From Lachnospiraceae bacterium (GTDB taxonomy: Bacteria > Bacillota > Clostridia > Lachnospirales > Lachnospiraceae), in the NCBI GenBank assembly GCA_024698885.1, contig JAILQQ010000063.1, positions 1-47,682 of the forward strand: DNA of 47,682 bases. The letters are read 5' to 3'. How positions within the stretch are numbered: the first letter of the stretch is position 1; the number at the start of each line of letters is the position of its first letter. Positions 17,711-40,208 of the stretch are shown one piece after another. The translations under genes and the position numbers were made by a program. The notes under the pieces were generated by a model, which had not been told where the DNA came from, made no database searches, and saw only the letters and a program-made list of their open reading frames with translations.

Positions 17711-17739
17711 CTGCGCCGATCTGCTTTTCAGACCGGATC
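17711..17739 (-). repeat. Partial copy of the CTGCGCC palindromic element
   Basis: CTGCGCC (17711-17717) is followed by an imperfect GATC...GGATC arm to 17739. It lies just past the GH42 stop and, unlike the other copies, is not next to a ribosome binding site. Confidence 0.6.
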
Positions 17740-17740
17740 A

Positions 17741-19771
17741 TTACCCTATACAGGTTCTAAGCACCAGCACATCCCTTGCCGCAAGCCGGATCGTTCCCTG
17801 CAGCTTCTTGCCCGACAGAAGGTCTTCGTAAACAGCAGCCGAAAGGTCTATACTGCCGCCGTCCCGGTCATGGCAGATCACAAACCATATCTGTTCACCG
17901 TTCCTGATCCGCTCAGAAACCTCCACCTCTCCCTCCGTGGAAAAAGGCGGCCTTATCTTATTTTCACTGAGGATCTGCCCTGACAGATCGTCGAGGAACG
18001 GATCCTCCGGTCTCGTTGCCAGATAATATGCCTTTCCTCTGCCATAATGATTCACGGTAAAACAGGGCTCCCCCGCGTAGAAATCCTCTCCGTAAAACCC
18101 AAGCGGCTCCGCGCCCTCAAGCCGGATCCTGTCGCAGAGGAAATCGCAGGAATACTCCCGTTTTGCTGTATGTATCGTATTCTTCTCTCCCGGAAGCAGC
18201 GCATCCGTCTCCTCGACCCACAGCCCGAAGACCTTTCTTAAAAGCCCGGGATATGCCTCATAGACGCAGCGATCGTCTTCGTCCGCATATCCTGTCAGAT
18301 AAGTTGCGATCAAGGTACCTCCGTTTTCAACAAATCGCTCAAGCCTTTCCGCTGTCTCGGGGGCAAGCATATATAACAGGGGAAGAAGGATTATTTTATA
18401 TTTTGAAAGATCCGAGCCAGGCTTCAGGAAATCCACCGGAATATTCCGTCTGTAAAGCGGGGCATAGTATTTATGTACTTCTGCCAGATAATCAAGCGAC
18501 TCGGAAGGCCCTGAGCTGTTCTCAAGAGCCCACCAGCTCTCCCAGTCCATGATGATCCCTGTTTCCGAACAGGTCTCTGCCCCGACAATGTATTTTCCAA
18601 GGTTCTTAAGCTCCCCGCCAAGCTGCTTCATCTCCCGGAATATTCTGGTATCGCTGCTCCCGCTGTGTGAAATGAGCGCCCCATGGAACTTCTCAACCCC
18701 GGAAACAGACTGCCGCATCTGGAAATACATCGAGCTGTCCGCGCCGCGGCCTAACCCCTGATAAGCAAGCTCCCTTACCTCGCCGGGCCGCTTCAGTTTA
18801 TTATAAGGCTGCCAGTTCTGCTGGTTCGGCGACTGTTCCATAACATAAAATGAACGCCCGTCCTTGAGACCCCTCATGATATCATGCGTCATGGCGGTAA
18901 ATGACGGGGGCGAGCCGGGATCCGGATAATTGTCCCACCCGATGACATCCATGGCCTCAGCCATGCGGCTCAGATCGAGAGGTTTCAGATTACTGGAGAA
19001 ATTGGTAAAGACCGGAAGCTCAGGCGTCGCCTTCTTTAAGATACGCGCCTCGTTTTGAAAGCATTCCAGGGTAGAATCCGTCATGAAACGCTGATAGGCG
19101 AGCATGACGGCAGGATCACAGACATTGTCGTCATTTAATTCCGACGGAACCATGATCTCGTCAAAAGATGTGTATGTCCGGTTCCAGAACGCCGTATTCA
19201 GGCGCCTGTTGAGCGCATCGATGGAACCGTATCTGTTTTTAAGCCACCCCGCAAACTTCGTCCGGCAGGTACCGCAGTAGCAGTAATGCCCGTATTCATT
19301 GGCGACATGCCAGCCGGCGAGACCCTTTCTTTTTCCGTATCGTCCGGCCAGCTGCTCTGCCATCAAAGCGGCGCGCTCCCTGTACTTTTCACTGTTTAAG
19401 CAAAACAGCGTCCTTGAGCCGTGAACCTTTCTTCTTCCCTGCACGTCGACCAGATGCACCTCGGGATATTGTAAGGACATCCAGGCCGGAGGTGCCGCGG
19501 CAGGCGTCGCAAGAAAGAAATGAAAGTCGTTATCCTCGATCAAGTCGATGATCTCATCAAGCCACGCAAAGCAGTACCGTCCTTCCACCGGCTCGAGTTT
19601 TGTCCACGCAAATACCGGGAAGGTCAGGATATTGATCCCGGCCTCCCGGAACAGCGCCATGTCCTTTTGGATCGTCTCCCTGTCCCATTGGTCAGGATTA
19701 TAATCTCCTCCAAAAAGAACCGTATTTTTCAAGAACAGAGAGTCATTATTCATCAAGTATAACTGTGTCAT
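17741..19771 (-). CDS. GH42 beta-galactosidase
   Basis: The enzyme cleaves terminal beta-galactosides. The GH42 start FGGDYNPDQW is followed by the acid/base Glu159 in WHVANEYG, the nucleophile Glu312 in YVMEQSPNQQNW, and the cysteine cluster Cys124, Cys164, Cys166, Cys169 that binds zinc in GH42 enzymes. There is no signal peptide, so it acts in the cytoplasm on imported oligosaccharides, matching the adjacent ABC transporter. The start is uncertain: ATGs at 19834, 19771 and 19753 all lack strong ribosome binding sites; 19771 (676 residues) is a compromise. A TATACT -10 lies upstream at about 19880. Confidence 0.92.
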   Translation of the reverse strand: MTQLYLMNNDSLFLKNTVLFGGDYNPDQWDRETIQKDMALFREAGINILTFPVFAWTKLEPVEGRYCFAWLDEIIDLIEDNDFHFFLATPAAAPPAWMSLQYPEVHLVDVQGRRKVHGSRTLFCLNSEKYRERAALMAEQLAGRYGKRKGLAGWHVANEYGHYCYCGTCRTKFAGWLKNRYGSIDALNRRLNTAFWNRTYTSFDEIMVPSELNDDNVCDPAVMLAYQRFMTDSTLECFQNEARILKKATPELPVFTNFSSNLKPLDLSRMAEAMDVIGWDNYPDPGSPPSFTAMTHDIMRGLKDGRSFYVMEQSPNQQNWQPYNKLKRPGEVRELAYQGLGRGADSSMYFQMRQSVSGVEKFHGALISHSGSSDTRIFREMKQLGGELKNLGKYIVGAETCSETGIIMDWESWWALENSSGPSESLDYLAEVHKYYAPLYRRNIPVDFLKPGSDLSKYKIILLPLLYMLAPETAERLERFVENGGTLIATYLTGYADEDDRCVYEAYPGLLRKVFGLWVEETDALLPGEKNTIHTAKREYSCDFLCDRIRLEGAEPLGFYGEDFYAGEPCFTVNHYGRGKAYYLATRPEDPFLDDLSGQILSENKIRPPFSTEGEVEVSERIRNGEQIWFVICHDRDGGSIDLSAAVYEDLLSGKKLQGTIRLAARDVLVLRTCIG

Positions 19772-22745: not shown

Positions 22746-22778
22746 CTGCGCCGATTCGGTCTGCCGGCAGACCGAATC
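22746..22778 (-). repeat. CTGCGCC element with a perfect 26-bp palindrome in the leader
   Basis: CTGCGCC (22746-22752) is followed by a perfect 26-bp palindrome (22753-22778, half-site GATTCGGTCTGCC). On the minus strand GGCGCAG then leads straight into the ribosome binding site of the 922-residue protein. It is a copy of the leader element described at 30019. Confidence 0.8.
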
Positions 22779-22849
22779 ATTTCCTTATCCGGCGTTTATC
22801 GTTTATCCTGTCAACTGCCAAACTGTCAGGTTCTGTCCATACTAATGTC

Positions 22850-22870: not shown

Positions 22871-22925
22871 AAAAAAAACTTGCCAAACATATTTTTCATT
22901 GAAAAATGAAATTTGGCAAGTTTTT
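22871..22925. promoter_or_regulatory. Nested dyad element, copy 1, between divergent genes
   Basis: Outer arms AAAAACTTGCCAA and TTGGCAAGTTTTT match over 13 bp, and an inner ATTTTTCA/TGAAAAAT pair surrounds the centre. Promoter-like boxes flank it on both sides. Near-identical elements lie at 25779-25832 and 40157-40208. Confidence 0.8.
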
Positions 22926-24168: not shown

Positions 24169-25704
24169 TTAATCCGGCATCGGCGGGTTATATACCCACT
24201 CCGTGATCGGTCCCATTTGATACTCATATTCATAGACGTTATACATCCGCACCTTACCGGTCGCATCATCCATAACACCGTAAACCAGATACGTGATCTC
24301 CCCGTCCTCATGTCCCTCGGGGTAGCTGCATTTGATCCTCAGAAGCGCCCGGGAAAGATCGTCTCTCCAGCTCATGGTATCATCATGAGGGATCGGGCCG
24401 AAGGTCTTAAGCGGCTTTTCGGGCCAGCCGGCCGTAAAATACTGCTTCGGTTCCATTTTGATCCCATATTCTCCCGTGCCGAATTCCACATCGCAGAAAC
24501 CGAAAGCGCAGATCACGCTCCCGGGAGGATCCGTCTCGTTGGAATTACAGCTGATCGTGAGCGCCGGCTCCGTGTAGTCCCCGTCATACATCGTACCAAA
24601 ATAAAGCTCCGGGATCTCTACGGTATAGGGTTCCCCGCTTTTTTCATTCGCGAAACGATACTCTATCTTCTGACCGTCCACGCCGTAGCGTTTTGCCTCC
24701 ACGCTGATCCCGTCCTGCTCCGCGCTCCCGTTGACGGGTCCGATGTATTGAATATCCTTAAGCGTCCACTTCCCGGCATACTCGTAACCCGTCCAGTCAG
24801 GCTCTCCGGCATGATCTCCTTTCTCCGTCCGCTCTTCGAAGACATCTTCGTCCTCTTCCTCTTGAATGCTTCCCTCAACCCAGGTATATTCCCAACAGTT
24901 CCGGATGACCGGGTCTCCCTCCGCCTCACGGAAAAGATCCAGCACAAGGAAGATCTTATCCCCGTCTTCCCGGATCATTTTCGGGAAGTTTCCCGTCATT
25001 TCAAAATAACCGTTATTCAGCTCGTTGTTATACGGCACCCCCTTCGGATCGCAGAGTTCGTTCTTTATTGAGAAATACTTCATTGGCAGCGCGCGCTCTC
25101 TCCCCGGGTATTTATAGCAGTAATCGCGTATCGTCACCGACTGCCCGAAAGGAGCGTTCCCGTCCTCCTTCATATCCGCAAAATATACGGAGCCGAAGAG
25201 ATCCCAGAAGGCATTCTCCTCATCCTCCCGCGGATATTGGAAGGTGATCCTCGGCCTGCATTGTCCCCCCGAACGATAATAGTCCTCCAGGCCGCCGGCC
25301 TTCACGATGACCTCAGAACTTCGGCTCCCGGCATCAAAATCAAAATATATATCCTGTCTTTCAACTTCGCTGCTCCGGCGCACGTTTCCACTGTAACCAT
25401 CCGCCTCCCAGCTGTCCGTGAGCGCCTCGCATTCCGTATGGCCCGTAAGCGCCCAATATCCCTCGTCGGAATCAGGAGAAACAAAGTGCTTTCCTTCTGC
25501 GGACCAGGGTTCCAGGTCTGAAACATCGGCGCGCACCTTCCCTTCGTAACGTCCTTCCGAATAAATACCCTCCGTGCTCCCGCCGGTCTCTCCCGTATCC
25601 GGATCACCGCTCCCGTTTCCTTTTCCTTCTCCGCCGCCGCAGGCCGTAAACAGCAGAGCCAAAGTCACACTCAGTATTATTCCCGTCAGTTTTTTCCCGT
25701 TCAT
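24169..25704 (-). CDS. Exported acidic lipoprotein of unknown function
   Basis: The 511-residue protein has a lipoprotein signal ending LLFTACGGG, then a Gly/Asp/Thr-rich linker and a soluble domain rich in Tyr, Asp and Glu with no motif I recognise. The C-terminal part has beta-rich segments such as SVICAFGFCDVEFGTGEYG and ITYLVYGVMDD. It likely sits on the outer face of the membrane. Its upstream region has the dyad element, an extended -10 box and a palindromic leader, the same order as the genes starting at 22723 and 40047, suggesting shared control. Confidence 0.75.
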   Translation of the reverse strand: MNGKKLTGIILSVTLALLFTACGGGEGKGNGSGDPDTGETGGSTEGIYSEGRYEGKVRADVSDLEPWSAEGKHFVSPDSDEGYWALTGHTECEALTDSWEADGYSGNVRRSSEVERQDIYFDFDAGSRSSEVIVKAGGLEDYYRSGGQCRPRITFQYPREDEENAFWDLFGSVYFADMKEDGNAPFGQSVTIRDYCYKYPGRERALPMKYFSIKNELCDPKGVPYNNELNNGYFEMTGNFPKMIREDGDKIFLVLDLFREAEGDPVIRNCWEYTWVEGSIQEEEDEDVFEERTEKGDHAGEPDWTGYEYAGKWTLKDIQYIGPVNGSAEQDGISVEAKRYGVDGQKIEYRFANEKSGEPYTVEIPELYFGTMYDGDYTEPALTISCNSNETDPPGSVICAFGFCDVEFGTGEYGIKMEPKQYFTAGWPEKPLKTFGPIPHDDTMSWRDDLSRALLRIKCSYPEGHEDGEITYLVYGVMDDATGKVRMYNVYEYEYQMGPITEWVYNPPMPD

Positions 25705-25718
25705 GATTCTTTCCTCCC

Positions 25719-25745
25719 GATCCGGTCCGCCTTGTTTACCGGATC
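25719..25745 (-). repeat. Palindromic leader element, variant copy
   Basis: GATCCGGT (25719-25726) pairs with ACCGGATC (25738-25745) around an 11-nt loop. It lies in the leader of the lipoprotein gene directly upstream of GGGAGGA, matching the position of the other copies. The CTGCGCC part is degenerate here. Confidence 0.6.
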
Positions 25746-25757
25746 ATTTCCATACCA

Positions 25758-25778: not shown

Positions 25779-25832
25779 AAAAAAAACTTGCCACGCTGAT
25801 TTTTCAATGAAAAATAAGGTTGGCAAGTTTTT
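25779..25832. promoter_or_regulatory. Nested dyad element, copy 2
   Basis: AAAAACTTGCCA and TTGGCAAGTTTTT arms flank a perfect inner ATTTTTCA-A-TGAAAAAT dyad. Only the leftward side has promoter-like boxes; no -10 is seen to the right. Confidence 0.75.
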
Positions 25833-26406: not shown

Positions 26407-27033
26407 TCAGTCGAGCATTCTCTTTGCTTCTCCCAGGAATGACAAATACAGGAAATACTGGATCACCATCATCGCGGAGCCGATGATCTCTAAAATCGCG
26501 GCCAGGGTTCCTTCCATAACAAAGCTTCCCAGAACGGTAGCTAAGATCGAGCAGCCGAATGCGATAAAGATCAGCAGCTTAATGCGTTTGCCCTTCTCAA
26601 TGATCAGCATATTCCCAAGCTTCCTGCCCAGAATGATAACGGCGGATATGACATAGAGCGAAATGATCACCGAAACGATCGAATCAAAGCCTCTGGCGAT
26701 ATCCTGTACAACATCCACCGGAACAGCCGTAAGGATGCCCGCAATGATACCGGCAATGGCAAATTTGTAAGCCGTCCCGAACTTCTCCTCATCCTTTGAC
26801 GCCGTCTTCAGCCCGGTCAGATTCATGATAAACGAAACAATGAGTAACAGTCCCCCCACCAGGGCAACCACCAAAGCCCCCGAACCGACGGACGCAAGAG
26901 CTTCCTCTTCCTCTTCAGCCGCTGAAGCCAGGGCTACGATACCCCCTATCAGCAGGGCGATCGTGCCGATAATTGCCATGATCTCGGCAGTATAGATCCT
27001 TTTTACTCCATGATACGCGTTTTTGAATTTCAT
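26407..27033 (-). CDS. Polytopic membrane protein of unknown function
   Basis: The 208-residue protein has about six hydrophobic helices (first at IMAIIGTIALLIGGIVALA) and an acidic EEEEE loop after the first. No family was recognised. An AAAGGAGG site precedes the ATG, and the CTGCGCC half-element lies between it and the upstream channel gene. It starts 37 nt after the MscS-type gene and is probably in the same transcript. Confidence 0.7.
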   Translation of the reverse strand: MKFKNAYHGVKRIYTAEIMAIIGTIALLIGGIVALASAAEEEEEALASVGSGALVVALVGGLLLIVSFIMNLTGLKTASKDEEKFGTAYKFAIAGIIAGILTAVPVDVVQDIARGFDSIVSVIISLYVISAVIILGRKLGNMLIIEKGKRIKLLIFIAFGCSILATVLGSFVMEGTLAAILEIIGSAMMVIQYFLYLSFLGEAKRMLD

Positions 27034-27047
27034 ATAGTCCTCCTTTT

Positions 27048-27062
27048 CTGCGCCGATCTGCT
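27048..27062 (-). repeat. Half copy of the CTGCGCC leader element
   Basis: CTGCGCCGATCTGCT lies directly upstream of the AAAGGAGG site of the 208-residue membrane protein gene. Only the conserved end is left. Confidence 0.55.
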
Positions 27063-27070
27063 AAACTTTT

Positions 27071-28798
27071 TTATGGTTCCGTGGAATCCTTTGCCTCATG
27101 CACAACGATCTGATTGAACGGGATCTCCACGTTACGGCGGTCGAAGATGATCTTGAGCTCGCGGTTAAGGGCCCTGGTAGCAGGAAATCTTGAAGTGCGC
27201 TCCACAAACATAACGATCAATATCATGACGCTGCTGTCCTCGAAGGAACTGACACCGTCGCATCTTGGGGCCTTTACCAGACCGGGGATCCGGTCATTCC
27301 CGATCAAAGGCAGTTCTTCCGCAAGGATAGCCTCAATCTCCGGAATATCAGCATCATAGGAAATCGGCATTTTCACCGCAATGCGGATCACATCCTCGCA
27401 GTTGATGATGTCGCGCATGGATGAGTTGTTGAAGATCTTTATGTCGGTATCCTTTTTTACCTTGGTCGTACGAAGTCCGATCTCCGTAACCGTACCTGAC
27501 CAGCTGCCTACATTAATGTAATCACCCACCTTATAGGTACTCTCAAAAATGATGAAAAATCCCGCCAGAATATCGCTGACCATGTCCTTTGCGCCCAAGC
27601 TGATCATTAACGACAGGATTCCGGCCGACGCAAGCAGCGTCTGCGTGTTCACGCCAAACTGTGCCAGCCCGTAATATACAAAGATGATCACACAGATATA
27701 TTTCATGGCGTTTTTCAGAAGAAGGCATACCGTCTCAACCCGCATATCAGAAGCCCGCGCGATGTGATACAGGATCAGGTCGAGTAAAACCGACACGACA
27801 TACATGGCGCACAGCAGGAAAATACAGGCCGTAAACGCAAAGATATTCACCCCCTTCTCCCACTTTCCGGAGATCACATAGGCGAGATTATTCAGATTTC
27901 CAATGCCGGAATCACTGTTCCATCCCACATAAAGAGTCGGCAGCAGAATAAACAGGCAAAGCAGAAGCAGCAGACGGTAGACGATCCGCACGATGCGCAT
28001 TTCCGGCGTCTGATTCGCGCCGAGCACGGTATTGACCTGCCAGCGTTCCTCAAAGCCCCTTTTGTTCCTCGCTCTGGTCCGTTCCAGAAAACTGGATATG
28101 ATACTCTCCGCCTTAACCTCTTCTTCCTCATCATCGATATTGGCAAACTCAAGATCCCGGTCGGGATCCGCCTCACCGGAAGGAACGGCATCGAGCACAT
28201 CCTTCTGATACCGAAACAGCGTCATCAGCGTAATGATACACAAAATGATCGCCGCCGCCAGGGCAAGCTTGCAGGAACTGGTAAACGCCCCTTTATTGCT
28301 GCTTTTACGCATGATGGGTACCAGGTACTGATCCTCGGAGGCGCTGACCCCGGCATAATAAGTCAGGTCGTTGATCTCGATAAAACCGCTGAAATTCTGC
28401 TCAAGGTTCTCCTTGGAAAGTCCCAGCTCATCTACGCTTTCGCCTACATATCCAAGGCCCGTAGTGGCAGAGACCGTCAGCGTTTCCTTATCGATAGCGA
28501 TCGCATAATCGGGAAGTCCGATGATCAGATTGTTTAAGACCGTATCTATGGTAAGCGCGTCTAAGAGCTCATCGCGCAGCGTCGGATCCACGCCGATCAT
28601 CACAAAGCCGTCACACAGATCCTCTTCGTTGCGCATGCTCACGCCGATATACTGGATGTATTCATGATATCTTTCATCCTTCATCGGCGGCTCGATCACG
28701 ATATCCGCACCCTCTAACAGTACATGGAACTCATAAAGCGGATCCCCCGGTTGATTTCCCACCTTCAGATGGTCATAATTTGAGTTGGTGACGATCAC
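27071..28798 (-). CDS. Sensor-MscS mechanosensitive channel, C-terminal part of a frameshifted gene
   Basis: The 575-residue frame starts at a GTG with no ribosome binding site, in the middle of an extracellular sensor domain. It then has a membrane helix, an acidic cytoplasmic stretch, further helices and the MscS pore and beta-domain: LLASAGILSLMISLGAKDMVSD, VGDYINVGSWSGTVTEIGLRTT, FNNSSMRDIIN. MscS channels open under membrane tension. Dropping one A from the A5 run at 28829-28833 (minus strand) joins this frame to the upstream one, reading NVKYLFLFDEEGKVIVTN. Confidence 0.85.
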   Translation of the reverse strand: MIVTNSNYDHLKVGNQPGDPLYEFHVLLEGADIVIEPPMKDERYHEYIQYIGVSMRNEEDLCDGFVMIGVDPTLRDELLDALTIDTVLNNLIIGLPDYAIAIDKETLTVSATTGLGYVGESVDELGLSKENLEQNFSGFIEINDLTYYAGVSASEDQYLVPIMRKSSNKGAFTSSCKLALAAAIILCIITLMTLFRYQKDVLDAVPSGEADPDRDLEFANIDDEEEEVKAESIISSFLERTRARNKRGFEERWQVNTVLGANQTPEMRIVRIVYRLLLLLCLFILLPTLYVGWNSDSGIGNLNNLAYVISGKWEKGVNIFAFTACIFLLCAMYVVSVLLDLILYHIARASDMRVETVCLLLKNAMKYICVIIFVYYGLAQFGVNTQTLLASAGILSLMISLGAKDMVSDILAGFFIIFESTYKVGDYINVGSWSGTVTEIGLRTTKVKKDTDIKIFNNSSMRDIINCEDVIRIAVKMPISYDADIPEIEAILAEELPLIGNDRIPGLVKAPRCDGVSSFEDSSVMILIVMFVERTSRFPATRALNRELKIIFDRRNVEIPFNQIVVHEAKDSTEP

Positions 28799-28808
28799 TT
28801 TTCCTTCT

Positions 28809-29864
28809 TCATCGAACAGGAAGAGGTATTTTTACGTTCAGATAGTCCGCATAGATCTGCATAGCGGCCCGGTTGGGAGGCTGAATTTCTTCATCAGGAG
28901 GCGCGTCCTTGCTCCGGCCCTTTATGATCAGGGAAGCTAACCGGCACTGAACCTCATAAAATGAGTCCATCCACTCCCCTAACAGCTCGCTCTGCTTTTC
29001 ATAGGTATTCAGTGTCTCTACCGCCACCTCGGCGTGGTGCGTCATGGTCTTCAGTTCGTCAGCCACACCGTTCAGTGACTGGAAATACCAGGAGATCGCG
29101 AAGGTGATCAGGCAGACGATCAGGGAATAGGACACTAACTTGTTCCGAAGCGACCTGGCCGTCTCGCAGCGTTCATCCAGTATAAGACTGATCCATCTGA
29201 TGAGCAGCCAGATCAGCAGAAAGAGGATCACCGTGGCGATGATCGCGCTCGAAAAGAACGAAAGCAGTTCATACAGGGAGATGCCGCAGATGATATAATA
29301 GTCTTCATATTCTATCAGGCAGCCATACAATGACTGACTCATATAGGCGTCAAAGTCGGCAAAGCTGCTGATATCATTTTCTACGGTACTTTTGAGGTCA
29401 AAAAAATTAAATTCGGTGTCCAGGTCCTCCGGCTTCGTCCCGGACGTAACGGATTTCAGATCCAGTACATTGTCCGCAGAAAGCGGATCGTCCGGAACCA
29501 GCTGAATGCCGATCAGGTCCTCATCCGGATGTGCTAGCACCGTCATGGTATCCTTTGATAAAACCACGACCGAGCCGTCCCGGCCCACCTTCAGTTTGGT
29601 CACCCGGTCCATCCAGGACAGCGTCGCGCTGACAAACATTTCGAGCTTTGCCTCGGTATCCGGGATATAATAATCCTCTTCGTCCAGAAGGCCGTCGGCG
29701 GACATCCTGTCCCAGCTGTTCTTCATCTGATCACAGACCTTGCGAAGAGCCGCTTCGCTTTCCTCAAGCTGCGGGATGATCTGCGCGACCTGGATCACAG
29801 CCCTGCGGATCTGCGGCATGAGGCGTTCCTTATAGTTGGCCTTGTAAATACCGAAATTTTTCAC
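28809..29864 (-). CDS. Sensor-MscS channel gene, middle part (dCACHE-like sensor)
   Basis: This 351-residue frame carries an extracellular sensor of dCACHE type (AKLEMFVSATLSWMD, GRDGSVVVLSKDTMTVLAHP, DYYIICGISLYELLSFF), two membrane helices (about 205-230 and 247-263), a coiled stretch and the start of a second sensor domain. It ends at a TGA created by a +1 shift in an A5 run. Its GTG start overlaps the previous stop by GTGA, and it lacks its own N-terminal membrane anchor, which is encoded in the upstream frame. Together the three frames would make a protein of about 975 residues. Confidence 0.75.
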   Translation of the reverse strand: MKNFGIYKANYKERLMPQIRRAVIQVAQIIPQLEESEAALRKVCDQMKNSWDRMSADGLLDEEDYYIPDTEAKLEMFVSATLSWMDRVTKLKVGRDGSVVVLSKDTMTVLAHPDEDLIGIQLVPDDPLSADNVLDLKSVTSGTKPEDLDTEFNFFDLKSTVENDISSFADFDAYMSQSLYGCLIEYEDYYIICGISLYELLSFFSSAIIATVILFLLIWLLIRWISLILDERCETARSLRNKLVSYSLIVCLITFAISWYFQSLNGVADELKTMTHHAEVAVETLNTYEKQSELLGEWMDSFYEVQCRLASLIIKGRSKDAPPDEEIQPPNRAAMQIYADYLNVKIPLPVR

Positions 29865-30001
29865 GAGTACAACAAAAAGGACACGACAAGGACGATATAC
29901 AGCAAATCCTTCCGCAGGCGAATGCCGTGCCTGTATTTCTTCTGCTCCGGGGTTGCCGGAGCGTCTGATCTCTTTTTTCTGCTCTTAATCCTTTTGAACA
30001 T
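29861..30001 (-). CDS. Sensor-MscS channel gene, N-terminal anchor part
   Basis: From an ATG at 30001, after AAGGAG, a 46-residue frame encodes a basic cytoplasmic tail and a membrane helix (DLLYIVLVVSFLLYS). If the T5 run in TCCTTTTTG had six T, it would read VVSFFVVLVKNFGIYK and run straight into the middle part. It is most likely the true N-terminus of the sensor-channel gene. Confidence 0.6.
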   Translation of the reverse strand: MFKRIKSRKKRSDAPATPEQKKYRHGIRLRKDLLYIVLVVSFLLYS

Positions 30002-30018
30002 CCGCCCTGAATCTCCTT

Positions 30019-30106
30019 AACTGCGCCGATTTGCTTGCAAATCGTGCGCTTAGGCACGAACCTGTTCGTGCCCAAGCGCACGATCCGCAAGCGGATCGGC
30101 ACAGTT
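30019..30106 (-). repeat. Gap-free cloverleaf leader element (fullest copy)
   Basis: An outer stem (30019-30027 with 30098-30106, 8 of 9 pairs) encloses three hairpins with no unpaired base between them. Arm one is 30028-30043 (GATTTGC/GCAAATC), arm two 30044-30061 with 30064-30081 (18 bp, one mismatch), and arm three 30082-30097 (GATCCGC/GCGGATC). On the minus strand it ends immediately before the ribosome binding site of the sensor-channel gene. Partial copies occur at 17711, 22746, 25719, 27048 and 40066. It is not a tRNA: arm lengths and invariant bases do not fit. Confidence 0.85.
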
Positions 30107-30108
30107 CA

Positions 30109-30127
30109 GGGGGCGCAATGCGCCCCC
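30109..30127. terminator. GC-rich hairpin beside the cloverleaf
   Basis: GGGGGCGC and GCGCCCCC are joined by AAT. It lies just after the S41 peptidase gene on the minus strand and may end its transcript, though no T run follows. Confidence 0.45.
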
Positions 30128-36213: not shown

Positions 36214-39200
36214 TCAGTCATAGATCGTATATACGTCTCCCATCATGTTGCTCCAGTTACTGTAATAATCCTGCCCGTTCACGGTCAGGTAATACCTGTA
36301 TCTGTACCAGTAGGTCTCACCCTGCTTAAGCGAGCCGAACTGACTGGACATAGTTGCCTCATCAGAGGTATTCTTAACTGTTTTCCAGCTGCCGTTTTCG
36401 CCTTCCTTTACCGCGTATTCATAGCCTGTGATCTTAACGCCGTCCGTGGGCTTATAGGCCTTGAATTTAATGCGGCCTCCTTTGATGATCCCCGGCGGAA
36501 GCGTATTCGGCGTGGTCTTCTCGATCGCCGCGATATCCTTTTCCTGCCGGGGCGTCAGGGTAGGCTCCGGCTTAGGGGTAGGCGTCGGCTTGGGCGTCGG
36601 TGTCGGCTTGGGCGTCGGTGTCGGCTTAGGCGTCGGTGTCGGCTTGGGCGTCGTTGTCGGGTCTGCAACGATCACATTAAAGATACCGCCATCCTCCCAG
36701 GTCGACGTATAGGACGTTCCCTCATAGGTACAGCCAACGGTCACATAAGGGCCGTCATATTCGGCAAACGGATTAATGGTCTCATGTCCGCTCCCGGTCT
36801 TCACCGTCAGCTTGCAGCCGCCGTCAGAAGTGTTTTTCAGTGACGCGGAGTCCACCATGCCGGAATCCAGGATCTTCCAGTTGGTCACCTTTACCTTCGT
36901 GGCATTTTTCGAATCCGCATTGACCATCCTGTACAGATAGAAGGTCTTATCAGACTGCTTAATATAATAGATTACCGAATCCTCTTCCTGTTTCTTCTTC
37001 TTATCCTTATCCTCCTCGATCCTGATCACGGTATTCTCCGGCGGTTCCTCCCCGTTCCCTCCCGGAGTGATCGAGATGGGCTTCTCGTCGTCAAACCCGG
37101 ATTTTTTGCCGCCTGTGGAGCCGTTATCCGATTCCTTGCCGGAATCAGGTTTGGGAGCATCCGTAGGAGTCGGCGTCGGCGTTTCCGTGGGTTTCGGTGC
37201 TTCCGTGGGTTTCGGTGCTTCTGTAGGCTTGGGCTCCTCCGCAGGCTTGTTTGAACCGGAAGGCTCTGTCCCGTTATTTATCGTATTGGTCTTAACAACC
37301 ACATCGCCGGAGGGTTTCATCGTATTTCCCTTGATATCATTGATATCACCTCCCACCGATATGGAACCCGCGCTCATGACCGAGGAATTAAAGCTCTTTG
37401 CCGTAAAGGAGCCGCCTACCGACAGGGTATCTGCCGGATCCTCCATCTTCACCCAGCCATATACAGCTTTCCCGTTTCCGTCGCTGTCCTTCTCCGCGCT
37501 TTCAAGAAGATAATCTCCGCTGATGAAAAGCTTGCCCTTGTTGAAATAGATCGCCGGATCCAGATGCCTGAAATTGCCGTTTACCTTCATGGTCCCGCCG
37601 TTTAAGTTCAGATCCGCCATAAGGCCGTCCACGTTTCCGTTTATGGTCATGGTTTTGCCGTTTAAGTCAAGCTTGTTCCAGATCTTCTCAACAGGCCCGG
37701 CTATCGTAACGTCCTCCGTAAGCCTGTTAACGCCCAGAGTCTTAAACTGTACGTTCTTATTGAGCGTCTTGATGGTCTCAAAGCAGGCGGAGCTGCCTGC
37801 GAATTCCACTACCTGTTTCTTTGCCCTTCCGTTGAATTTCGCGACGTGCCTGTCGCTGCAGCGTATGGTATTGCCCTTGTAGTCATTGACATTCCCCTGA
37901 AATTCCATGGTGCCCGCGGAAAGAACGGAGGAATTGTAGCTCCTTGCGCTGAAGTTCCCAAGAAGGACAAAACGATCCGCGTCGTTTTCCATCTTGATCC
38001 AGCCGTAGGAAGTCTTCGGCGTACCGTCTGCTTCTTTGTCCGGGCTTTCAATATAAAAGCTGCCGTCTACCCACAGCTCACCGCCGTTAAAATAGATCGC
38101 CGGATCCACCAGCCGTAAATCCTTCTTTACAAAGAGCTTTCCCTTGTTTAAGTCGATATCCGAACTTACCTTCTTTATATTTCCGTTGACCGTCATCCAT
38201 TGTCCGTTCAGATCCAGCTTGTTCCAGACATCCTCCACATCTCCGTAGAGCGTGATGCCCTGCGTCAGCCTGTGAACCCCGAGCTGCTTGAAGGTAACCC
38301 TCATGTTCGGCGTGGCTATACTCTCAAAGCAGGCAGAGCTTGACTGAAGGTCTACGATCTGCGGGCTCAGCCCGGAAAAGACACCGATATGATCCTTGCT
38401 GCCTTTTATCGTATTTCCCTTGTAATCGGTCACGTTCCCCTTAAACTCAGCGGTTCCCGCGCTCATAACGGAGGAATTATAGCTTCTTGCGTGGAAGTCC
38501 TTCCCGACGACCAGCTTATCCTTGGGATCCTCCATCTTCAGCCAGCCGTAAACGGTCTTCGGGGTTTTTCCGTCGCTGTCCTTTTCGGCGCTTTCAATAT
38601 AATAATTCCCCTGCACCTCAAGCTTGCCCTTTGTAAAGTAGATGGCCGGGTCATACTGCCTGAAATCCCCGGTAACGGTCAGCGTGCCGCCGTTTAAGGT
38701 AATATCTGACGAGACCTTGTTAACGCTGCCCTTAATGGTCATCTGCTTGCCGTTCAGATCCAGCTTATTCCAGATATCCTCCACATTTCCCGTAAGGATG
38801 ACCGACTCCGTCAGGGTATTGATGCCCATCTGCTTAAAGGTAACGTTCTGGTTCCTTGTGCTGATCGTCTGGAAGCATGCCGAGCTGCTCTGAAGGTCTA
38901 CGATCTGGTTTCCTCTGCCGGAGAACACGGCCTTATGATCCTTGCTGCCCTTTATGGTATTTCCCTTATAGTCGGTCACATTCTTCTTAAACTCTATGGT
39001 TCCGGCACTCATGACCGAGGAATTATAGCTTCTTGCGGAGAAATTGCCGCTCACAAGAAGGTAATCCGCGGTATTTTCCATCTTAAGCCAGCCGTAGGAT
39101 GGTTTCGGTGTCTTCCCGTCGGTATCCTTATCGGGGCTTTCGATCGTATAATTGCCGCCCACCTCAAGTCTTCCCTTATTGAAATAAATGGCGGGATCCA

Positions 39201-40047
39201 CCTGGCAGAAGTTCCCGTTTACAATAAGCTTTCCGCCGTTTAAGTCAATATCCGCGCTTACTTTTTTTACGTTTCCGTTGATCTTTAAGGTCTGGCCTTT
39301 CAGATCCAGCTTGTCGCTGATCTCTTCCACATCGCCCGTAATGACGGCTCCCGTCCTCATGCTCTTTAAGCCCAGCCTTTTAAATTTCACAGGCGCCCCA
39401 CCGGTGACGATGCTCTGGAAGGAGGCTCCGTTTGCCAGGTCCACTACAACGGACTTTTGCGCCAGCCCGAAATTCGCGAAGTTGGTCCCGCTGCAGCGGA
39501 TCGTATTTCCCTTATAGTCAGTAACGTTTCCGCAAAACTGCAGCTCGCCGGCTGAAATGACGGAGCTGTTATAGCTTCTGGCCCAAAAATCGCCTCCCAC
39601 ATACAGCCTGTCCTTGTCGCTTTCCATCTTGATCCAGCCGTAGGAGGTTTTCATAACCCCGTTTTCCTTTTCCGTACCCTCGATGGAATAATTCTTTCCG
39701 ACCGAGACATAGCCTCCGTTTACATACAGGGCGCTGTCTACCTGGTGGAGATTTCCGCTGACCCTGAAGTCTCCCCCCTCCACATCGATATCCGACTCCA
39801 TGAGCAGATCGCCGGAAACCTGGAGATAATACCCGTTAAGCTTTAAGGGTCCCTTAACGATCAGATCGCCGTCAACGCTCGTTCCCGCGCTTAACGTCAT
39901 GCCCTTGCTTATGGTCGTGGTCTTCCTTCCGTTTATGGTCTCCGTTTTCGTCCCGGAGACATCAAGCGCCACCACCTTCTGCGGCGCCGCAAAGAACAGC
40001 ACCACTGCCGTAAGGGCTATCAGCAGCCCTCTGAATCTCTTTTCCAT
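36214..40047 (-). CDS. Giant surface protein with five beta-rich repeats and Pro-Thr linkers
   Basis: The 1277-residue protein has a signal peptide (to about VVALDV). Residues about 60-930 hold five near-identical units of about 182 residues, each with SYGW/VYGW-KME, ARSYNSSVMSAG, VTDYKGNTI and WNKLDLNG blocks. The short regular Gly/Asn-rich strands suggest a beta-solenoid or polymer-forming fold. Two linkers rich in Pro-Thr-Lys (one PTEAPKP type, one PTPTPKP type) separate a middle domain and a C-terminal Fn3-like domain (YWYRYRYYLTVNGQDYYSNW). No LPXTG sorting signal is seen. It is probably a filament or adhesin-like surface protein. The promoter has dyad copy 3; the GGDEF-EAL gene follows. 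Confidence 0.82.
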   Translation of the reverse strand: MEKRFRGLLIALTAVVLFFAAPQKVVALDVSGTKTETINGRKTTTISKGMTLSAGTSVDGDLIVKGPLKLNGYYLQVSGDLLMESDIDVEGGDFRVSGNLHQVDSALYVNGGYVSVGKNYSIEGTEKENGVMKTSYGWIKMESDKDRLYVGGDFWARSYNSSVISAGELQFCGNVTDYKGNTIRCSGTNFANFGLAQKSVVVDLANGASFQSIVTGGAPVKFKRLGLKSMRTGAVITGDVEEISDKLDLKGQTLKINGNVKKVSADIDLNGGKLIVNGNFCQVDPAIYFNKGRLEVGGNYTIESPDKDTDGKTPKPSYGWLKMENTADYLLVSGNFSARSYNSSVMSAGTIEFKKNVTDYKGNTIKGSKDHKAVFSGRGNQIVDLQSSSACFQTISTRNQNVTFKQMGINTLTESVILTGNVEDIWNKLDLNGKQMTIKGSVNKVSSDITLNGGTLTVTGDFRQYDPAIYFTKGKLEVQGNYYIESAEKDSDGKTPKTVYGWLKMEDPKDKLVVGKDFHARSYNSSVMSAGTAEFKGNVTDYKGNTIKGSKDHIGVFSGLSPQIVDLQSSSACFESIATPNMRVTFKQLGVHRLTQGITLYGDVEDVWNKLDLNGQWMTVNGNIKKVSSDIDLNKGKLFVKKDLRLVDPAIYFNGGELWVDGSFYIESPDKEADGTPKTSYGWIKMENDADRFVLLGNFSARSYNSSVLSAGTMEFQGNVNDYKGNTIRCSDRHVAKFNGRAKKQVVEFAGSSACFETIKTLNKNVQFKTLGVNRLTEDVTIAGPVEKIWNKLDLNGKTMTINGNVDGLMADLNLNGGTMKVNGNFRHLDPAIYFNKGKLFISGDYLLESAEKDSDGNGKAVYGWVKMEDPADTLSVGGSFTAKSFNSSVMSAGSISVGGDINDIKGNTMKPSGDVVVKTNTINNGTEPSGSNKPAEEPKPTEAPKPTEAPKPTETPTPTPTDAPKPDSGKESDNGSTGGKKSGFDDEKPISITPGGNGEEPPENTVIRIEEDKDKKKKQEEDSVIYYIKQSDKTFYLYRMVNADSKNATKVKVTNWKILDSGMVDSASLKNTSDGGCKLTVKTGSGHETINPFAEYDGPYVTVGCTYEGTSYTSTWEDGGIFNVIVADPTTTPKPTPTPKPTPTPKPTPTPKPTPTPKPEPTLTPRQEKDIAAIEKTTPNTLPPGIIKGGRIKFKAYKPTDGVKITGYEYAVKEGENGSWKTVKNTSDEATMSSQFGSLKQGETYWYRYRYYLTVNGQDYYSNWSNMMGDVYTIYD
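36555..36660 (-). repeat. 18-bp tandem repeat encoding the Pro-Thr linker
   Basis: About five copies of an 18-bp unit encode PKPTPT repeats of the surface protein. Being a multiple of three, length changes keep the frame. Confidence 0.85.
37310..39850 (-). repeat. Five tandem coding repeats of about 545 bp
   Basis: The YGW motif recurs at roughly 39640, 39098, 38555, 38006 and 37460, giving a period of about 545 bp. Long near-identical DNA blocks within units could recombine and change repeat number in frame. Boundaries are approximate. Confidence 0.85.
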
Positions 40048-40065: not shown

Positions 40066-40116
40066 CTGCGCCGGCTTCTTTGCAAGCCGTGCGCTTAGGC
40101 ATGAACGGGTTCATGC
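40066..40116 (-). repeat. Leader element copy before the giant surface protein
   Basis: CTGCGCC (40066-40072), a 16-nt arm (40073-40088) and a GCATGAAC/GTTCATGC hairpin match arms one and two of the cloverleaf at 30019; the third arm is missing. Stem changes relative to that copy keep base pairing. It lies just upstream of GAAGGAGG. Confidence 0.75.
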
Positions 40117-40134
40117 GACAATTACAGCGTGTAC

Positions 40135-40156: not shown

Positions 40157-40208
40157 AAAAAACTTGCCAAACATATTTTTCAATGAAAATTAAATTTGGC
40201 AAGTTTTT
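40157..40208. promoter_or_regulatory. Nested dyad element, copy 3, between divergent genes
   Basis: The 13-bp outer arms AAAAACTTGCCAA/TTGGCAAGTTTTT and inner ATTTTTCA/TGAAAAT pair are almost identical to copy 1. It lies between the surface protein gene and the two-HTH regulator gene. Confidence 0.8.

Follow-up and report, generated by a model that had tools for sequence, protein, structure and literature searches.

The sequence at 30019–30106 of the window (the whole 47,682-nt stretch of DNA analysed here, which is all of contig 59 of the source genome, G000; 3.71 Mb, 266 contigs) is probably one copy of a mobile repeat that is dispersed through the genome, built of hairpins, non-autonomous, and placed by preference at Shine-Dalgarno sites. 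The repeat lies in a fixed orientation, its 3′ end usually 0–5 nt before a purine-rich Shine-Dalgarno-like stretch, and its architecture is kept between species while the stems change in compensated pairs. An earlier note on this DNA had described a gap-free cloverleaf and had left two options for it, a structured leader RNA controlling translation or a mobile palindromic element that favours such sites. The second option is the one supported, by the dispersed copies and their patchy occurrence, the oriented association with Shine-Dalgarno sequences, the units found between def and fmt, and the compensatory changes.

The canonical unit is ~84 nt long and has the form GGAAAT-hp1-hp2-TAAGCGCAC-hp3-GGCGCAG, where the hairpins are GATYCGGTC...GACCGRATC (hp1), GGCAYGAAC..GTTCRTGCC (hp2) and GATYYGCAAGCRRATC (hp3).

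The element at 30019–30106 and its relatives in the window

Read directly, the sequence contains the outer stem and the three arms that had been described, with no unpaired base at the junctions (Table 1). The outer stem and arm 2 each carry one A·C mismatch on the plus strand, which is G·U on the minus strand. Compared with shuffled sequences, the fold had z scores of −12.6 as RNA and −10.9 as DNA, with 0 of 200 shuffles as good in each case, confirming that the element is real and far beyond chance. The cloverleaf itself is not the fold of lowest energy. As minus-strand RNA it reaches −58.5 kcal/mol against −73.2 kcal/mol for a single long hairpin, and as DNA −32.6 against −44.6; the long hairpin is thus favoured by ~15 kcal/mol (RNA) or ~12 (DNA), because arms 1 and 3 can pair with each other and not just each within itself. 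The energies, and the fact that canonical units are three hairpins in a row, rule out the cloverleaf as the true fold, and it is also atypical of the repeat family.

The covariance model of the family (R1, described below) matches the element on both strands, with 78.9 bits on the minus strand and 65.8 bits on the plus strand. The order of hairpins is hp3-hp2-hp3 instead of hp1-hp2-hp3, and two compensated pairs distinguish its hp3 arms from one another. Judged by this order, the window copy appears to be a rearranged member of the dispersed family, and the cloverleaf would be a by-product of an inverted fusion. Such a copy could have arisen when two opposed units were joined at the palindromic hp2, or when one unit was copied back at hp2 by template switching in an old fold-back event; either would give the arrangement seen. 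A separate GC-rich hairpin without a U run (GGGGGCGCATTGCGCCCCC on the minus strand, 30109–30127) lies between the S41-peptidase gene and the element.

Table 1. Positions in the window of the parts of the 30019–30106 element and of the other family members
Feature	Sequence or form	Position	Strand	Remarks
Outer stem	AACTGCGCC / GGCACAGTT	30019–30027 / 30098–30106		nine bases
Arm 1	GATTTGCTTGCAAATC	30028–30043		direct sequence reading
Arm 2	GTGCGCTTAGGCACGAACCTGTTCGTGCCCAAGCGCAC	30044–30081		direct sequence reading
Arm 3	GATCCGCAAGCGGATC	30082–30097		direct sequence reading
Window copy	hp3′-hp2-hp3, putative inverted fusion	30019–30106	minus	two 3′ halves around one common hp2; ends at AAGGAG
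hp3 hairpin of the minus-strand half	GATTTGCAAGCAAATC on minus strand, then GGCGCAG	30028–30043	minus	matches canonical hp3
hp2 palindrome	GGCACGAACAGGTTCGTGCC on minus strand	30053–30072	minus	centre common to both halves
hp3 hairpin of the inverted half	GATCCGCAAGCGGATC on plus strand	30082–30097	plus	
Shine-Dalgarno sequence	AAGGAG (CTCCTT on plus strand)	30013–30018	minus	directly after the element; ATG starts at 30001
5′-truncated copy	hp2-TAAGCGCAC-hp3-GGCGCAG	40066–40117	minus	just before Shine-Dalgarno of gene 36214–40047; R1 44.4 bits, model match extends to 40154
Short form	GGAAAT-hp1-GGCGCAG	22746–22784	minus	before AAAGGAG and in-frame ATG 22723–22721; R1 26.3 bits
hp1-only remnant	GGAAAT-hp1	25719–25751	minus	before GGGAGG and ATG (25704) of gene 24169–25704; edges counted from the printed sequence
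3′-end remnant	AGCAGATCGGCGCAG	27048–27062	minus	before Shine-Dalgarno of gene 26407–27033
Internally deleted form	GGTAATGATCCGGTCTGAAAAGCAGATCGGCGCAG	17711–17745	minus	no gene start seen beside it

On the minus strand the element ends immediately before AAGGAG, as the earlier note had it. That note assigned this site to a sensor-channel gene; the AAGGAG and an ATG are indeed present, but the ATG opens a frame of just 46 codons, and the gene for the mechanosensitive channel (PF00924) lies one gene further on, at 27071–28798. The 46-codon frame (MFKRIKSRKKRSD..., a likely membrane segment; 29860–30001) is continued out of frame by a 351-aa frame without a Pfam match at 28809–29864, which points to a frameshift, either real or an assembly error.

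Altogether the window holds six members of the family, all on the minus strand (the 30019 copy on both), and five of them adjoin a gene start. A second repeated palindrome, AAAAAACTTGCCA...TGGCAAGTTTTT, of 52 nt, occurs three times (22873–22924, 25781–25832 and 40157–40208, with 75% and 87% identity to the reference copy). Three minus-strand genes each have a copy not far upstream, near hairpin-family members, and the palindrome may be an operator or promoter common to a regulon.

Copy number, position and distribution of the repeat

With the window element as query, the source genome gave 99 matches, often on both strands of one place and most covering half the query. The hp3 pattern with its neighbouring sequence (up to three mismatches) gave 104 forward and 87 reverse matches, against none for a reversed-pattern control. 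R1 was built from 42 units (of 44 found, two with an unrelated 5′ part were left out, and one was trimmed) and gave at least 155 matches in G000, where 150 of 3,824 first-look candidates were scored. Regional statistics for this genome come from 92 merged stretches, 324 kb of the 3.71 Mb, chosen around element matches plus the window. No two of the 114 distinct full units are identical (the median identity to the nearest neighbour is 94%), so nothing shows recent movement. In 14 pairs of neighbouring full units the resemblance is closer (92%) than in random pairs (83%), which indicates that part of the copy number is local duplication.

The position of the units relative to genes was measured on the 100 3′-most full units, from which two near a region end were left out for the start-site count. 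A Shine-Dalgarno-like stretch and the start codon of an open frame were found within 45 nt 3′ of the unit in 64 of these 98 copies, at a distance of 10–18 nt in 45 of the 64. The same criteria applied leftward from the 5′ end gave 2 of 84, and random places gave 1177 of 20000. The Shine-Dalgarno-like stretch begins 0–5 nt from the 3′ end in 72 of the 100 units. Among the 34 copies without a gene start by these criteria, a few stand before real genes that the criteria missed, and others before terminator-like hairpins. Two further genomes of the genus bear the repeat and show the preference less strongly, with 12 of 24 in G019 (mirror test 0 of 25) and 2 of 7 in G024 (mirror test 0 of 7).

When 28 of the 114 units that overlapped an open frame in a rough gene call were set aside, 50 of the 86 units that could be placed lay between two genes on the unit's own strand, 16 between divergent and 6 between convergent genes; 4 faced the other way, and 10 had no neighbour on one side. 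The downstream genes, read by eye, are a cross-section of seemingly unrelated housekeeping functions. Pfam confirmed fmt, def and dtd among the downstream or neighbouring genes, and others are presumably truA, murD and ruvB, names that we read from the N-termini. The downstream genes of G000 (65) and those of G019 and G024 (14) had no orthologues in common, a comparison of low power given the small sample; the sole match between the two sets was one ABC-ATPase at 27%.

The distribution of the repeat is narrow. R1 matched 3 of 41 genomes in a first set and 3 of 37 genomes of the genus, these being G000, G019 (66 matches) and G024 (8 matches). Among 299 genomes drawn from the family, G000 was the sole match when 15 candidates from each genome were passed to scoring with tighter filters, in a set that held just one genome of the genus besides G000. 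An exact-pattern scan of named genomes found three Lachnospiraceae MAGs, UBA3814, RUI134 and RUI154, with 68, 1 and 4 R1 matches respectively. The places matched in UBA3814 coincide with those of G019, and on this ground the genus is assigned to Lachnospiraceae. At least two of the matches in RUI134 (one, L110) and RUI154 (four, L111) are near contig ends; these may be genuine, or may sit on stray contigs from a near relative of G000. A tree of Fmt from 30 genomes puts all three bearers on the same side of one branch (support 78/77; 83% of bootstrap trees). One 101-base copy with its flanks gave no match in plasmids or phages, and the exact pattern was not found in viral contigs. Among the open-licence PMC papers found by literature search, none described the repeat in its title or the start of its abstract.

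Paired changes and the level of the structural constraint

In the A1 alignment, 14 of 31 base pairs had changes on both sides, compared with 5.9 ± 1.3 in shuffled alignments (0 of 500 as high) and 1–5 in slid controls, and 96.6% of the cells were paired. Single transitions turn a Watson-Crick pair into G·U or A·C, of which a structured RNA should keep G·U and lose A·C. The 114 distinct units of G000 gave 2501 Watson-Crick cells, 20 G·U, 21 A·C and 20 other, with hp3 cells counted just for the 16-base hp3 (85 of 114 units). The near equality of G·U and A·C suggests that the two strands are equivalent, as in a DNA palindrome, and that the structural constraint acts at the DNA level rather than on a sense RNA. 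The same pair of counts is a simple test, usable elsewhere, for separating folded-DNA repeats from structured RNAs.

The relatives were searched with the unit pattern, allowing up to three mismatches. The 26 units of G019 keep GGAAAT, TAAGCGCAC and GGCGCAG but have other stems (GATTCGTTCGG..., GGCACAATC..., GGCCTGC...), which are still paired: 578 Watson-Crick cells, 4 G·U, 13 A·C and 3 other. Ten of these 13 A·C cells come from a single position in hp2 and so are not independent. In the 7 units of G024 the skeleton is again kept and the stems differ, with 155 Watson-Crick cells, 2 G·U, 2 A·C and 2 other. Units with poorly paired arms were left out of both sets, which inflates the Watson-Crick share but not the comparison of G·U with A·C.

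A structured leader RNA acting in cis, whose hairpins in the mRNA would control translation of the next gene in the manner of a riboswitch or as a protein-bound site, would fit the sense-oriented position just before a start site (64 of 98 copies), the placement between two genes on the unit's strand (50 of 86) and the stable hairpins with compensatory change. We consider it unlikely. G·U is not preferred in G000 (20 against 21 A·C) or in G019 (4 against 13, with 10 of the 13 at a single hp2 position), Rfam at gathering thresholds gave no match anywhere in the window, the downstream genes look functionally unrelated by eye, and the low-powered comparison of 65 with 14 downstream genes gave no shared orthologue. 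Nor does the element hide the start site. At 30019 the ribosome-binding stretch lies outside the predicted long hairpin and partly in a small weak one, and over 52 copies the predicted unpaired fraction of the start region was 0.568 with the element, 0.545 with the element removed (p 0.015) and 0.538 with the element shuffled (p 0.076), so that the region is slightly freer with the element in place. Given that G·U is not favoured over A·C, and that the ribosome-binding stretch is outside the predicted hairpins and not less open, neither a leader RNA as the cause of the structure nor a function as leader has support. Translational regulation is at most a by-product; an effect on translation, if there is any, would be secondary.

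Paired changes can also come about without selection. Between neighbouring sister units we counted 12 double Watson-Crick changes, 11 one-sided changes and 1 other, which makes paired changes common. Switching of template during replication, from one arm of a quasi-palindrome to the other, would keep the arms perfect; this process, described for E. coli (PMC7202029), would produce such changes in repeats that are otherwise inert debris, and it would also leave mismatches without strand preference, as observed. As the whole explanation it is rather improbable, since it leaves the spread of the repeat, the linker motifs shared across species and the Shine-Dalgarno preference unexplained; it may, however, act together with the mobile-repeat explanation.

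Insertion, mobilisation and comparison with known repeats

The gap between def and fmt in G000 is 151 nt and holds two units, the first of which overlaps the end of def. Of 30 relatives found for the fmt locus, 23 were examined, and their def–fmt gap is −4 to 21 nt in 21 and 83 and 112 nt in the other two; in G019 and G024, which carry the family elsewhere in the genome, it is 0 and −4. These gap lengths show that the repeat was gained between two genes that are otherwise nearly adjacent. The exact insertion junction is not given by this locus, because Fmt is ~50–61% identical among the genomes. At locus L019 of G000 the element overlaps the Glu-rich tail of def, and the def stop codon is now inside hp1. 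A flank from RUI154, searched as an empty site, had no match in G000. The dtd locus was rejected as a second empty site, since the frame upstream of it in G000 (gap 347) probably does not correspond to the gene found before dtd in the relatives.

Where units are stacked, the spacers carry a further signal. Of 43 units that follow the GGCGCAG-like end of another unit, 10 have a spacer in which 5–12 nt of the gene-side flank recur; the summed match is 94 against 30.8, with 0 of 2000 shuffles as high; the Shine-Dalgarno stretch is apparently repeated between stacked units. For isolated copies the tendency to target-site duplication is at most weak (in two tests, 29 of 500 shuffles and 67 of 2000 reached the observed value), and part of that signal came from copies with an undetected piece of the element on the 3′ side. 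Terminal inverted repeats were not seen when the 5′ end (GGAAATGAT) and the reverse complement of the 3′ end (CTGCGCCGAT) were compared by eye on the alignment, without a score; the part they have in common is the inner GAT.

The spacer repeats, and an excess of stray 3′ ends (56 of 154 outside full units) over stray 5′ ends (28 of 120), are what target-primed reverse transcription of an element RNA, as in a bacterial counterpart of a SINE, might leave. The stray ends include a recurring short form, hp1-GGCGCAG. The excess may have other sources: the regions were picked with queries favouring the 3′ half or 3′ ends, several of the 56 match by chance within coding sequence, and truncation could be later deletion. 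Reverse transcriptase (RVT_1) had 4 matches in G000, 2 in G024 and 0 in G019 (85% complete), and was present in 8 of 22 other genomes; with its presence inconsistent and G019 without a match, it was rejected as the common mobiliser. We regard this SINE-like route as extremely unlikely.

A REP/REPIN-type element moved by a Y1 transposase (RAYT/TnpA-REP) would share the dispersed palindromic hairpins and their compensatory changes. REPINs are described as palindromic hairpins with compensatory change, forming an inverted doublet that can fold as a hairpin or as a clover (PMC3116915), and the window copy is likewise an inverted doublet, for which both a clover and a hairpin can be drawn. The canonical unit (114 places) is not such an inverted palindrome pair; its three hairpins differ from one another, run in a single direction and are joined by conserved linkers, and it sits at Shine-Dalgarno sites. 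The Y1 transposase family (PF01797) had no match in G000, G019 or G024 (drafts, 85–98% complete), yet 13 of the 22 genomes of the genus that were searched and lack the element have one. Mobilisation of the REP/REPIN type is thus very unlikely.

For the mobile repeat at Shine-Dalgarno sites that we favour, the hairpins could be read as folded DNA by a recombinase or transposase acting in trans. Joining at Shine-Dalgarno-like purine tracts would then fix the orientation of the unit and leave the start site of the gene intact. We suggest tentatively, as a possibility short of a probable one, that the repeat represents a class of mobile repeats integrated by a machinery that reads the signals for translation start. 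Such a repeat would be a DNA element of three hairpins, with neither terminal inverted repeats nor a detectable Y1 transposase, whose fixed 3′ end is joined a few bases before a Shine-Dalgarno sequence that is apparently repeated when units stack, and which colonises gene junctions, even that of def and fmt, with translation unbroken. If the preference for start sites is a targeting rule, the element would use ribosome-binding sites as safe harbours; if it is the result of selection, the copies would amount to natural experiments that show which sequences are tolerated in front of a start site.

In style and history, as far as their published description goes, the BOX, RUP and SPRITE repeats of pneumococcus are the nearest. 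They too are modular hairpin repeats in the chromosome of a Gram-positive, confined to few species, old rather than freshly moving, and thought to be parasitic, but they are over-represented between convergent genes (PMC3049150). The repeat described here has no terminal inverted repeats that could be seen and differs in gene context: whereas the pneumococcal repeats, the best described comparison, favour convergent genes, it favours gene starts in a fixed direction, at a large part of well over 100 places. With MITEs it shares small size, lack of coding capacity and high copy number, but not terminal inverted repeats, of which none were seen, and target-site duplication is not convincing at isolated copies. 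The TAACTGA repeats of Beggiatoaceae resemble it in standing at start sites in one main orientation; they form 169 repeat sets in one genome, generally near start codons and mostly in one orientation, as direct repeats of 7 nt lying across the position where a ribosome-binding site would be expected, with a Shine-Dalgarno sequence also present in ~10% of such regions (PMC4679880). The unit described here, in contrast, stops before a Shine-Dalgarno sequence.

Two further sets of repeats were seen in the window. Direct repeats every 543–546 nt (37360–39657, four to five copies) lie inside the gene at 36214–40047, which encodes 1277 aa, and correspond to protein repeats of ~182 residues. Towards the contig end, 45848–47682 contains repeats with ACTATCAG...TAGGTAGATA, in which 145 nt occur twice at 77% and a 24-nt core occurs three times.
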